A stretch of DNA of 27,090 nt from a virus: IMG/VR virus record IMGVR_UViG_3300042314_000744, positions 1 through 27,090 of that record; one strand, written 5' to 3'. Numbering within the stretch: position 1 is the stretch's first letter; the number at the start of each line of letters is the position of its first letter. Shown here one piece after another: positions 582 to 13,354 of the stretch. Both the position numbers and the translations under genes were made by a program. Under the pieces are notes generated by a model. It was given only the letters and a program-made list of their open reading frames with translations. It ran no database searches and was not told the origin of the DNA.

Positions 582-589
582 TATCTTTA
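582..589 (+). promoter_or_regulatory. Weak -7 element ahead of the HNH leader
   Basis: TATCTTTA differs from the TAnnTTTG consensus only at the last base. It lies 9 nt before the 5' arm of the leader structure, so a transcript would begin at about 594-597. No good -33 TTG is visible, so the call depends on the parallel with the promoters at 2412 and 12704, which precede the same RNA fold. Confidence 0.4.
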
Positions 590-598
590 CTGTATCGA

Positions 599-671
599 GG
601 ACTAGCGATAATAACAACTTAATAAATTGCCAATCGTTTAAAGACTAGTCCCTTTTTTCGGTTGGCTTTTT
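599..671 (+). ncRNA. Leader RNA A: pseudoknot/terminator-like fold before the HNH gene
   Basis: Arm a, GGACTAG (599-605), pairs with a', CTAGTCC (645-651). Arm b, GCCAATCG (629-636), pairs with b', CGGTTGGC (659-666, one G-T pair). Because b lies between a and a' while b' lies after a', the two helices interlock as a pseudoknot. Inside b/b', AAAG (640-643) can pair with CTTT (652-655), placing a' in an 8-nt terminal loop with a symmetric TTT/TTT internal loop. Five T residues (667-671) follow b', and the HNH start codon is 10 nt after b'. The same layout is seen at 2436 and 12722. Confidence 0.7.
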
Positions 672-676
672 GTATT

Positions 677-1189
677 ATGGAAAATGAAATTTGGAAAACA
701 ATTGAAGATTATCCTAATTATCAAGTATCTAATTTAGGTAGGGTTAAAAGTTTAAGTAGAACTGTTTTTTTAAAAGGAAAACATCCTTTTATATCAAAAG
801 AAAAAATATTGAAAACAAGCATTGACAATTCTAATTATTATAACGTTAATTTATATGAAAAAGGAAAAATAAAAACTAGAACAGTACATCAACTTGTTGC
901 AATTGCTTTTCTTAATCATAAACCTTGTGGATTTAAATTAGTAGTTAATCACAAAGATTTTAATAAATTAAATAATTGTGTTGAAAATCTTGAAATTGTT
1001 ACGCAAAGAGAAAATTCTAATAAAAAACATTTAAAAAGAAGTTCACAATATACTGGAGTTTATTGGTATAAAGAAAGAAAAAAATGGAGATCTATGATTT
1101 GTATTAATAATAAAAATAAACATTTAGGCTATTTTGAAACAGAATTAGAAGCACAACAAGCATATCAAAATAAATTAAAACTAATATAA
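677..1189 (+). CDS. HNH homing endonuclease with NUMOD4 and AP2 domains
   Basis: This is a free-standing homing endonuclease that would cut DNA and promote its own spread between phages. Residues 1-55 resemble NUMOD4 (IWKTIEDYPNYQVSNLGRVK). Residues 69-112 are an HNH_3 domain with H71, N91-H92, D94 and N99-N100, followed by NLEIVT. Residues 123-167 look like an AP2 DNA-binding domain (YTGVYWYKERKKW, then LGYFETELEAQ). The start is taken as ATG 677, 10 nt after the leader hairpin, because the NUMOD4 core begins there; an in-frame TTG at 662 lies inside the hairpin arm. It is visibly more AT-rich than its neighbours, consistent with recent insertion. Confidence 0.9.
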   Translation: MENEIWKTIEDYPNYQVSNLGRVKSLSRTVFLKGKHPFISKEKILKTSIDNSNYYNVNLYEKGKIKTRTVHQLVAIAFLNHKPCGFKLVVNHKDFNKLNNCVENLEIVTQRENSNKKHLKRSSQYTGVYWYKERKKWRSMICINNKNKHLGYFETELEAQQAYQNKLKLI

Positions 1190-2406: not shown

Positions 2407-2419
2407 TTTATTATATTTG
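2390..2419 (+). promoter_or_regulatory. Bacteroidetes-type promoter before recT
   Basis: TTG at 2390-2392 (within TTTTG) and TATATTTG at 2412-2419 are separated by 19 nt, a close match to the Bacteroidetes -33/-7 arrangement and the best promoter in the window. Transcription would begin about 2424-2427, just ahead of the 5' arm of leader RNA B. Confidence 0.7.
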
Positions 2420-2435
2420 CTTAACTAAAAAGTTC

Positions 2436-2513
2436 GGCTAGGGACTTTCACAAATTTATAACACCCCTTTTAATGCTTAATTCTAGCCAATTAAGATTTT
2501 TAAAAGGGGTTTT
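2436..2513 (+). ncRNA. Leader RNA B: pseudoknot/terminator-like fold before recT
   Basis: Arm a, GGCTAG (2436-2441, two more possible G-T pairs), is complementary to CTAGCC (2483-2488). That segment is exactly the 6-nt loop of a 7-bp hairpin CTTAATT/AATTAAG (2476-2482 with 2489-2495). This hairpin sits inside a longer stem, ACCCCTTTTAA (2463-2473) with TTAAAAGGGGT (2500-2510), followed by TTT. The order a, b, c, a', c', b', T tract is the same as in the leaders at 599 and 12722, although the sequences differ. The recT ATG lies 17 nt after the stem. Confidence 0.7.
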
Positions 2514-2527
2514 AATTTAAAATCATT

Positions 2528-3205
2528 ATGAAAAATGAAATTCAAATAATGCCAGTTAATGACATTATGGTAATGGCAAAAACTTTTGCCGAAAGTGGAA
2601 TGTTTACCGATGCGAAAGCAATGGGTCAAGCGTTTGTTAAAATTCAAGCAGGGCAGGAAATAGGAATACCTCCTTTCGCTGCAATGAGTGGTATTCATAT
2701 CATTCAAGGTAAACCAACTTTAGGAGCTGGACTTATTGCAAGCGCCATCAAGGGGAGTGGTAAGTACGATTACAAAGTTAAAGAACTTACTGAAAAAAAT
2801 TGTTCCATTGAGTTTTTTCAAGGAAATGAATCAATAGGGGTTTCTAACTTTTCTATTGAAGATGCAAAAAAAGCACTTACAAAAAACATTGATAAATTTC
2901 CAAAAAATATGCTTTTTGCCCGTGCTATTTCAAACGGTGTTAAATGGTATTGTCCTGATGTATTTTCTGGTCCTGTTTATGTTCCTGAAGAAATGCCAGA
3001 GGTTACAGTAGACGTTCAACACGTGGAAGTTGTAGATCCTAAAATTATCAAACTAAATCAAAAACAGTTTGATAAACTATTGACTGCCGATATTGCCACA
3101 GTTGAATTATATCTTGATAATTTAGAACAAGGTAAACTTGATCTTACCGATGCACAATTAGCACAATTAAATATTTATTATGAAACTCTTAAACCAATAG
3201 TATAA
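2528..3205 (+). CDS. recT: RecT family single-strand annealing protein
   Basis: The 225-aa product matches the RecT annealase pattern: QAFVKIQAGQEIGIPPFAAM followed by IHIIQGKPTLGAGLIAS in the first third, CSIEFF in the middle, and NMLFARAISNGVKWYCPDVF with GPVYVPEEMPE at about 125-160. RecT proteins bind ssDNA and anneal complementary strands during phage recombination and replication. Its stop overlaps the ATG of the SSB-like gene (TAATG), so the two are probably made together. No RecE-type exonuclease was identified beside it; the VRR-NUC protein downstream is the nearest nuclease. Expression begins at the promoter and structured leader just upstream. Confidence 0.9.
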   Translation: MKNEIQIMPVNDIMVMAKTFAESGMFTDAKAMGQAFVKIQAGQEIGIPPFAAMSGIHIIQGKPTLGAGLIASAIKGSGKYDYKVKELTEKNCSIEFFQGNESIGVSNFSIEDAKKALTKNIDKFPKNMLFARAISNGVKWYCPDVFSGPVYVPEEMPEVTVDVQHVEVVDPKIIKLNQKQFDKLLTADIATVELYLDNLEQGKLDLTDAQLAQLNIYYETLKPIV

Positions 3206-6170: not shown

Positions 6171-6201
6171 TGATAAATGTAATACAAATATTATTAATAA
6201 A

Positions 6202-6300
6202 TGGTGCAAACATTGTTGCACTACTACTTTACACATTGCACTAGTGTAATGGTGCAAACGTGTATATATAGATACACGTTTGCACTACACCACTACACCA
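6202..6300 (+). repeat. Iteron-like cluster; candidate replication origin or operator
   Basis: Five copies of the octamer TRGTGCAA (or its complement TTGCACYA) occur in 86 bp: 6202-6209 (+), 6216-6223 (-), 6236-6243 (-), 6250-6257 (+) and 6280-6287 (-). The last two are the outer parts of a perfect 14-bp inverted repeat, 6252-6265 with 6272-6285 (loop ATATAG). The first two form an 8-bp hairpin. The direct repeat CACTACAC occurs twice at 6283-6298. The cluster is in the 149-bp gap between the ATPase and a small ORF, ahead of a tandem-HTH gene. It may be an origin, an operator array or a structured 5' leader. Confidence 0.6.
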
Positions 6301-12651: not shown

Positions 12652-12674
12652 ATTCTTACAAATAATAATTAATA

Positions 12675-12702
12675 AAAAGCTCTCATTATTGGGAGCTTTT
12701 TT
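12675..12702 (+). terminator. Intrinsic terminator after the capsid gene
   Basis: AAAAGCTCTC (12675-12684) pairs with GGGAGCTTTT (12691-12700), ten pairs with one G-T, with loop ATTATT and six T residues at the 3' side. It begins 23 nt after the capsid stop and separates the capsid transcript from the HNH cassette. Confidence 0.85.
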
Positions 12703-12703
12703 G

Positions 12704-12711
12704 TATATTTG
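12704..12711 (+). promoter_or_regulatory. Promoter -7 element of the HNH cassette
   Basis: TATATTTG starts 1 nt after the T tract of the capsid terminator and 10 nt before arm a of leader RNA C. The expected start point is about 12716-12719. No well-spaced -33 TTG is visible; the terminator hairpin occupies that position. Confidence 0.55.
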
Positions 12712-12721
12712 TATTTGTAGA

Positions 12722-12796
12722 GTCGTCGCTACAACTAAAAACATTATAAAATTCCACCATTGATAAAGACGACGACCTTTTGATATGGTGGTTTTT
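12722..12796 (+). ncRNA. Leader RNA C: pseudoknot/terminator-like fold before the second HNH gene
   Basis: Arm a, GTCGTCG (12722-12728), pairs with a', CGACGAC (12770-12776). Arm b, CCACCAT (12754-12760), pairs with b', ATGGTGG (12785-12791). The helices interlock as in leader A. Between them AAAG (12765-12768) and CTTT (12777-12780) can pair, leaving an 8-nt loop (A plus a') and a symmetric TGAT/TGAT internal loop that could form tandem G-A pairs. Five T residues (12792-12796) follow b', and the ATG is 10 nt after b'. Layout and spacing match leader A almost exactly, with different arm sequences. Confidence 0.75.
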
Positions 12797-12801
12797 ACAT
12801 T

Positions 12802-13296
12802 ATGGAAATTTGGAAAAATATTGAAGATTTAGAAGTAAGTAATTTAGGTAATTTTAGAAGAAATAGAATAATATTAAAACAGTATGAGCATAGGTATTTG
12901 TTTGTAATGTTATTGGGAAGTAAAATAAAATCTTCGCATAGATTAGTAGCTTTAGCGTTTATACCAAACCCTGAAAATAAACCGCAAATTAACCATATTG
13001 ATGGCAATAAATTAAATAATAGGGTTGATAATTTAGAATGGGTAACTGCAAAAGAGAATACAAAACACGCTTTAAAAACAGGGTTACAAATAAGACATAA
13101 AGGAGAAAAATGTTTTCATTATGGGAAAAGAGGAGGAGAAGCAAACCGATCTAAAAAAGTATTAGACACTTCAAATGGTAAAATATACGATAGTTTGAAA
13201 GACGTTGTAAAAGATAGTGTTTATAGTTATAAAAATTTATCACGACAATTAACAGGAGAAAGAAAAAATAAAACTACCTTTGTATATGTTTCATAA
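12802..13296 (+). CDS. HNH homing endonuclease with NUMOD4-like and NUMOD1-like parts
   Basis: The 164-aa protein starts with a shortened NUMOD4-like segment (EIWKNIEDLEVSNLGNFRRN), followed by an HNH_3 domain with H46 in SSHRLVALAF and the core NHIDGNKLNNRVDNLEWVT (64-82). The C-terminal part (about 117-164, with GKIYDSLKDVV and SRQLTGERKNKTTFVYV) looks like NUMOD1-type DNA-binding repeats. It is inserted between capsid and connector genes and bounded by terminators on both sides. It differs from the first HNH protein in its C-terminal domain, so the two are not a simple duplication. Confidence 0.9.
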   Translation: MEIWKNIEDLEVSNLGNFRRNRIILKQYEHRYLFVMLLGSKIKSSHRLVALAFIPNPENKPQINHIDGNKLNNRVDNLEWVTAKENTKHALKTGLQIRHKGEKCFHYGKRGGEANRSKKVLDTSNGKIYDSLKDVVKDSVYSYKNLSRQLTGERKNKTTFVYVS

Positions 13297-13322: not shown

Positions 13323-13354
13323 AAAACCGTTTGTTAATCCAAACGGTTTTTTTT
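13323..13354 (+). terminator. Intrinsic terminator after the second HNH gene
   Basis: AAAACCGTTTG (13323-13333) pairs perfectly over 11 bp with CAAACGGTTTT (13340-13350), loop TTAATC, followed by more T residues to 13354. It closes the HNH transcription unit and overlaps the -33 element of the next promoter. Confidence 0.85.

Follow-up and report, generated by a model that had tools for sequence, protein, structure and literature searches.

In the kissing complex of ColE1 RNAI and RNAII, two loops meet in a fully paired contact of about 7 nt. The leaders described here would make the same kind of contact, but intramolecularly, within a leader RNA. Structured leaders at gene starts, for which low expression is likewise expected, are found in T4-like phages at homing endonuclease genes (I-TevI, segB and mobE; Gibb and Edgell), where a single hairpin hides the Shine-Dalgarno (SD) sequence and late promoters inside the hairpin free it. 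In contrast, the present leaders consist of two kissing hairpins running from the promoter, carry a U-run, involve no SD sequence, and also precede genes for proteins other than endonucleases; an SD sequence sequestered in a helix was not found, these Bacteroidota leaders having none and their stem P2 ending before the AU-rich start region. Attenuators based on intrinsic terminators also place a GC-based hairpin and a U-run between promoter and gene, but here a kissing partner hairpin stands at +1, no antiterminator is visible and the gap to the ATG is very short. The HMP-PP (thiS) riboswitch is a compact leader as well, and embeds a pseudoknot in its terminator hairpin (PMC6478431). In that riboswitch a terminator loop of conserved sequence senses a ligand, whereas the loops here change freely if they match each other; no sequence-conserved ligand pocket of that type was found in 59 leaders, whose loops and internal loops vary freely. 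HK022 put RNA is cis-acting, has about 70-80 nt with two stem-loops 3′ of phage early promoters, and is conserved in sequence and prevents termination (PMC9378689), whereas the present leaders end in a terminator-like hairpin and, with 47 different kissing arms among 59 leaders, do not show the conserved put sequence and stems.

The leader class belongs to none of the T4-type, put RNA and HMP-PP families. Rfam 15 gave 0 matches at gathering score in the window and 11 leader-bearing loci, the matches at a weak threshold being unrelated, and no description of the leader was found in the open-access literature, a scope that leaves out most subscription papers and preprints. HEARO or IscB omega RNA was rejected as a candidate, with no Rfam match at gathering score and only NUMOD4/HNH_3 proteins. 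Probably, these leaders represent an RNA device, not described before, by which genes in viruses of Flavobacterium-like bacteria are held down.

Three leaders in the window

The window, that is, the whole stretch of DNA analyzed, is one strand (5′ to 3′) of the IMG/VR virus record IMGVR_UViG_3300042314_000744, positions 1-27,090. Its three leaders and their surroundings, all on the + strand, are as follows.

582..589: TATCTTTA, −7-like box of HNH gene A
593..671: whole leader A, with P1 at 593-597/606-610
599-605/645-651: kissing arms GGACTAG/CTAGTCC of leader A
629-636/659-666: P2 of leader A, GCCAATCG/CGGTTGGC
640-643/652-655: P3 of leader A, with the U-run at 667-671
677..1189: HNH gene A (NUMOD4, HNH_3, AP2-like)
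2412..2419: TATATTTG, −7 box of the third leader
2429..2513: whole third leader, with P1 at 2429-2435/2442-2448
2436-2441/2483-2488: kissing arms GGCTAG/CTAGCC of the third leader
2463-2473/2500-2510: P2 of the third leader, with P3 at 2476-2482/2489-2495 and the U-run at 2510-2513
2528..3205: RecT-like gene behind the third leader (PHROG 561, E 4e-16)
12674..12701: ordinary intrinsic terminator of the capsid operon, just 5′ of the gene B promoter
12704..12711: TATATTTG, Bacteroidota −7 promoter box (TAnnTTTG) of HNH gene B, from sequence and the −7 placement in F. johnsoniae (PMC6847099)
12715..12734: hairpin 1 of leader B, P1 TTGTAG/CTACAA with 8-nt loop AGTCGTCG and kissing arm a, GTCGTCG, at 12722-12728 (sequence, descriptor, folding and covariation)
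12735..12753: A-rich linker of leader B, CTAAAAACATTATAAAATT
12754..12791: hairpin 2 of leader B, outer stem P2 CCACCAT/ATGGTGG at 12754-12760/12785-12791 (sequence, folding and covariation)
12765-12768/12777-12780: inner stem P3 of hairpin 2, AAAG/CTTT, separated from P2 by internal loop TGAT/TGAT
12770-12776: kissing arm a′, CGACGAC, in the 8-nt loop of hairpin 2
12792..12796: terminator-like U-run of leader B, directly 3′ of P2 (from the comparison with control genes below)
12802..13296: HNH gene B (HNH_3), behind leader B
13323..13350: intrinsic terminator 3′ of HNH gene B

Each of the three leaders has a TAnnTTTR box on its 5′ side and runs up to an ATTATG start. The order a-b-a′-b′ corresponds to two hairpins with kissing loops, a lying in the loop of hairpin 1 (in leader A, loop AGGACTAG between TATCG and CGATA) and AAAG/CTTT closing the a′ loop inside the P2 hairpin. 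Gene B is a closed unit, since the capsid terminator, promoter, leader, HNH gene and terminator follow in succession, and its +1 would be near 12716 if the −7 element is placed as in F. johnsoniae, where it occupies −12 to −5 (PMC6847099).

The sequence-only reading had placed GTCGTCG/CGACGAC and CCACCAT/ATGGTGG exactly where they lie, and leader A repeats this layout with arms of its own. Its statement that the arms of leader A are replaced base for base in position holds approximately only, since the a-to-a′ spacing is 46 nt in leader B and 48 nt in leader A, and P2 has 7 and 8 bp, respectively. AAAGA, CTTT, TTTTT and ATTATGGAAA, given as conserved in sequence, are indeed common to leaders A and B, but AAAG and CTTT were rejected as conserved motifs: they covary as helix P3, which reads AGTG/CACT, ATAG/CTAT, GAGG/CCTC or ACAG/CTGT in relatives, so that structure rather than sequence is conserved. 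That arm a lies within a hairpin loop and that AAAG/CTTT is a helix had escaped that reading, and a and a′ would therefore pair as a loop-loop kiss. The internal loops that it reported, TGAT/TGAT in leader B and TTT/TTT in leader A, both recur in relatives, beside GGA/AAA(G) and AGTA/GAAA. It was also right that one duplicated gene carrying its leader does not explain the pair, for the fold is shared with compensated arms and the HNH proteins differ, A comprising NUMOD4, HNH_3 and an AP2-like stretch and B only HNH_3.

Minimum free energy (MFE) folding of the whole leader B with flanks gave a z of only −1.6, and trimmed leaders gave −2.5 to −4.3; the weak value of the whole leader is ascribed to MFE folding being blind to the kiss. 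A match of 89.7% to leader B occurs in cultured Flavobacterium phages (34 records), 5′ of a gene annotated as endonuclease, and both bases of the top P2 pair differ in that match (CCACCAA/TTGGTGG versus CCACCAT/ATGGTGG). In locus L007, whose HNH protein is 84% identical to B, the kiss (GTCGCAC), P2 (CCCTATT/AATAGGG) and P3 are all altered yet still paired. The kissing arm GTCGTCG recurs with differing P1 and P2 before three different genes (L152 953-1040, L064 1386-1480 and window 12712-12799), and it looks from these sequences as if leader parts had been swapped among genes. Elsewhere in the window, an intergenic cluster of TTGCAC/GTGCAA repeats in both orientations at 6200-6300 is possibly a replication origin or operator.

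A leader class of Bacteroidota phages

A descriptor was built from hairpin 1, linker, hairpin 2 (inner and outer stem) and loop-loop pairing, with score thresholds set on the present data. Its best three matches in the window, scoring 69.5 (2429-2510), 58.0 and 57.1, are the three leaders, all on the + strand, and the best score in 40 window shuffles was 56.9. In a 1.98 Mb set, mostly Bacteroidota phage DNA with loci of HNH, portal and RecT relatives and named phages, 52 matches scored at least 58, an ORF lying right after 46 and the box being present as well in 44; one shuffle gave 1, 0 and 0. At a score of at least 54, with the box and an ORF directly behind, there were 74 matches in the 1.98 Mb and 0 in shuffles. 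Dropping near-duplicates and doubtful matches left 59 leaders with distinct arms; in this count, as in that of 43 below, different arms make different leaders, though some share ancestry and the metagenomic contigs are partly redundant.

The sequence-only reading had called the element an HNH leader, a label that proved too narrow. Besides free-standing HNH genes and, as in the window, recT, the genes behind the leaders encode SF2 and PIF1 helicases, primase/VapE, replication initiation proteins, C5 methylase and small unknown proteins. An HNH-specific element was thus rejected, recT, helicase, primase, methyltransferase and other genes carrying the leader. Scanning relatives of the helicase added few new loci. 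The leader is also present in cultured phages, namely Flavobacterium hemulen6-1, other LMO6/LMO9 phages, FCV-1 and 11b, and Polaribacter P12002L. No leader match was found in Riemerella RAP44, the first 50 kb of Cellulophaga phi10:1 or Bacteroides B124-14, and no convincing one in Parabacteroides PD491P1, Enterococcus EF3 or Flavobacterium 6H.

In two low-GC bacterial genomes, which may not be flavobacteria (840 kb, 3567 boxes), 0 matches with box and ORF scored at least 52, versus 87 in the phage set. A host gene leader was accordingly not seen in these 840 kb. In Firmicutes-dominated HNH loci, descriptor matches are no commoner than in shuffles. A general HNH leader across phyla was rejected too: H-type pseudoknots are at best slightly overrepresented in such loci, of which 4 of 78 beat all shuffles (1.3 expected), and among viral HNH loci 23 of 96 do so (1.6 expected). 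A covariance model built from alignment A2 (see below) and run on 0.95 Mb of phage, low-GC bacterial and Firmicutes loci gave 14 matches at E<0.1, all in phage loci, and recovered methylase and recT leaders outside the model.

Several loci deserve separate mention. Leader L403 11606-11686 is of the same type, with internal loop AAGTA/GAAA, 5′ of a gene starting MIGIYKITNPKKRVYIAQSVDIERR, a start that looks like that of a GIY-YIG endonuclease. In L191 (8253-8741), a leader lies 5′ of a gene with repeats of type SIGDHASIGYGA, which resemble left-handed beta-helix hexapeptide repeats. An extra small linker hairpin (e.g., GGTTAATTACTTAACC, TTGGCAGAAATGCCAA) follows an A-rich stretch in L064, L036, L076, L034, L043, L217, L182 and L229. 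HNH loci L099 and L106, both at about 1390-1500, apparently have SD starts and pseudoknot-capable leaders. Upstream of 1959 in L297, labeled Candidatus Staskawiczbacteria, an HNH leader has arms GCTATCCAG/CTGGATAGC and CCCAAC/GTTGGG and a U-run; this contig may be a misbinned phage, as similar arms occur in L016, L028 and L069.

Kissing loops, covariation and strand

The predicted kiss rests on complementarity and covariation rather than on an energy model, as the folding tools used cannot score pseudoknots. When leaders were picked by box, hairpin 1, hairpin 2, U-run and ORF, with loop complementarity ignored, 35 of the 43 distinct leaders had at least 6 loop-loop pairs, and permuting the loops in 500 trials gave a mean of 2.6 and a maximum of 8 such leaders. 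Since leaders chosen without the kissing criterion still kiss, the contact is no artefact of selection. Covariation was measured in A2, a MAFFT alignment of 12 leaders in which some rows are misaligned, which disfavors structure; nevertheless, 79.4% of cells are paired, versus 62.9% in shuffled alignments, and the covariation score is 0.438 versus 0.182. Covarying arm pairs, for which the sequence-only reading proposed a test in related phages, do occur here, 17 of the 24 pairs, including 5 of the 7 kissing pairs, being changed on both sides, and shifting the pairing partners lowers every measure.

Sequence itself is almost free. The 59 leaders have 57 different P2 strands, and their linkers are 51% A. 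Among the orthologous RecT leaders of the window, L160, L162 and L180, only the internal loop TG/ATTT is common, while P1, kiss, P2 and P3 differ. This variation bears on a metabolite riboswitch with a terminator-embedded pseudoknot of the HMP-PP class, with which the compact pseudoknot in a terminator-like hairpin 5′ of genes would agree (compare PMC6478431); as loops, helices and internal loops all vary in the 59 leaders, leaving no conserved ligand pocket, as the genes have no common metabolic theme, and as a competing conformer was not found, we consider such a riboswitch very improbable.

In a rescan that allowed G-U and A-C equally, 78 G-U stood against 26 A-C, or 3:1, and this preference indicates that the leader acts as a sense-strand (coding-strand) RNA. 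A DNA-level element, with the inverted repeats serving as protein binding site, cruciform or homing signal, is on this account hardly credible at all: the repeats are palindromic on DNA too, but the 3:1 excess is on the coding strand, the arms share no sequence between loci, the matches point towards the gene, and non-mobile genes carry the leader too.

Promoter linkage and the terminator-like hairpin

P1 begins a median of 4 nt after the TAnnTTTR box in the 59 leaders, or at a median of +1 if the −7 element is placed at −12 to −5 as in F. johnsoniae (PMC6847099). A recT gene that directly abuts an upstream gene has no leader, and one heading its own unit usually has it. Both the position of P1 at +1 and the tracking of the promoter rather than the gene would suit a transcript-end device, in which hairpin 1 and the kiss shield the mRNA, or a freed RNA of about 80 nt, from decay, or in which the leader modifies RNA polymerase in the manner of HK022 put RNA, an element of about 70 nt with two stem-loops 3′ of phage early promoters (PMC9378689). 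However, put RNAs share sequence and these leaders share almost none, and put has no terminator whereas a U-run follows here, so that we regard this device as quite unlikely.

A U-run (at least 4 T in the 6 nt 3′ of P2) is present in 53 of 59 leaders versus 88 of 856 other genes (10.3%) at matched distance. The P2 base adjoining it is 56% GC, versus 17% in the linker, in AT-rich genomes, and hairpin 2 has a median MFE of −17 kcal/mol; that is, the stable hairpin with GC-rich base and subsequent U-run expected of an intrinsic terminator is found. The gap from P2 to the ATG is mostly 8-20 nt, and translation initiates less well in F. johnsoniae when the region around −20 to +20 is structured (PMC6847099). 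From U-run, GC-rich base and short gap, hairpin 2 resembles an intrinsic terminator and also lies within or next to the initiation-sensitive region. The MFE fold retains P1 in 50 and P2 in 53 of the 59 leaders and shows no shared alternative pairing; neither an antiterminator pairing nor a competing conformer was found in the leaders examined, so that the leader may damp expression constantly rather than regulate it.

Some observations count against the terminator reading. Six of the 59 leaders have no U-run. In Polaribacter P12002L (L124), the HNH genes gp22 and gp33 (13033-13190 and 27918-28035) have no full leader, and simpler a-b-a′-b′ pseudoknots are possible there (TCGTAGC/GCTACGA with CTATGTT/AACATAG; GAGGA/TCCTC with GCGTTTA/TAAACGC), in which b′ is near the ATG and no U-run follows it. 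Pure translational control would fit the tight spacing between P2 and the ATG. On this view, the kissing structure would keep ribosomes off the start region, much as the leaders of T4-type homing endonucleases do, and the U-run would be no more than AU-rich sequence around the start. I-TevI, segB and mobE place hairpins over their ribosome binding sites (PMC2988022, PMC3014915), and the HNH loci L099 and L106, which have no hairpin 1, have GGAG in a paired strand of the pseudoknot region. Nonetheless, 90% of leaders, versus 10% of control genes, show a mark of termination in that a U-run immediately follows a GC-rich stem base, and F. johnsoniae favors A rather than U in the start region (PMC6847099). 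We therefore take translational control as the sole function to be unlikely.

Proposed mechanism and significance

The reading that we prefer, and to which we give an even chance, is that the leader is a cis-acting 5′ RNA of about 80 nt that works as a terminator locked by the kiss, encroaches on the start codon as well, and leaves phage genes silent or weakly expressed. Computation shows the RNA fold, the kiss, the covariation, the use of the sense strand, the U-run, the tie to the promoter box and the lack of such leaders in the controls; that transcripts actually end there, that expression is low, how large the effect is and any signal that changes it are what we infer. Transcription would start at the foot of hairpin 1 or a few nt from it, and once a′ emerges, hairpins 1 and 2 would lock by a loop-loop kiss of 6-8 bp, with the A-rich linker spanning both. 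The base of hairpin 2 and the U-run would then act as an intrinsic terminator, whose hairpin the kiss probably causes to form fast and stay closed, so that most transcripts would end as a compact RNA of about 80 nt and a minority would read through. The read-through mRNA would keep a stable rod near the start codon, with hairpin 2 crowding the translation start region. The default would be little expression.

Since leaders head replication, recombination, modification and homing-endonuclease units, one phage or host condition that favors read-through could free several units together. An unlikely extension is a phage-wide regulon in Bacteroidota phages, in which one structure-reading factor sets read-through at all leaders at once; it might be a phage or host protein that recognizes the kissing rod, or a phage antiterminator that acts on RNA polymerase. 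As such a factor would read structure, sequence would be free to drift while the kiss is kept.

The leaders make up a structured RNA class with almost free sequence but a kept loop-loop contact, and sequence-based searches miss such classes. Little has been written on how Bacteroidota phages control transcription, and a leader that recurs, is linked to promoters and has a defined fold gives a concrete way into the subject.
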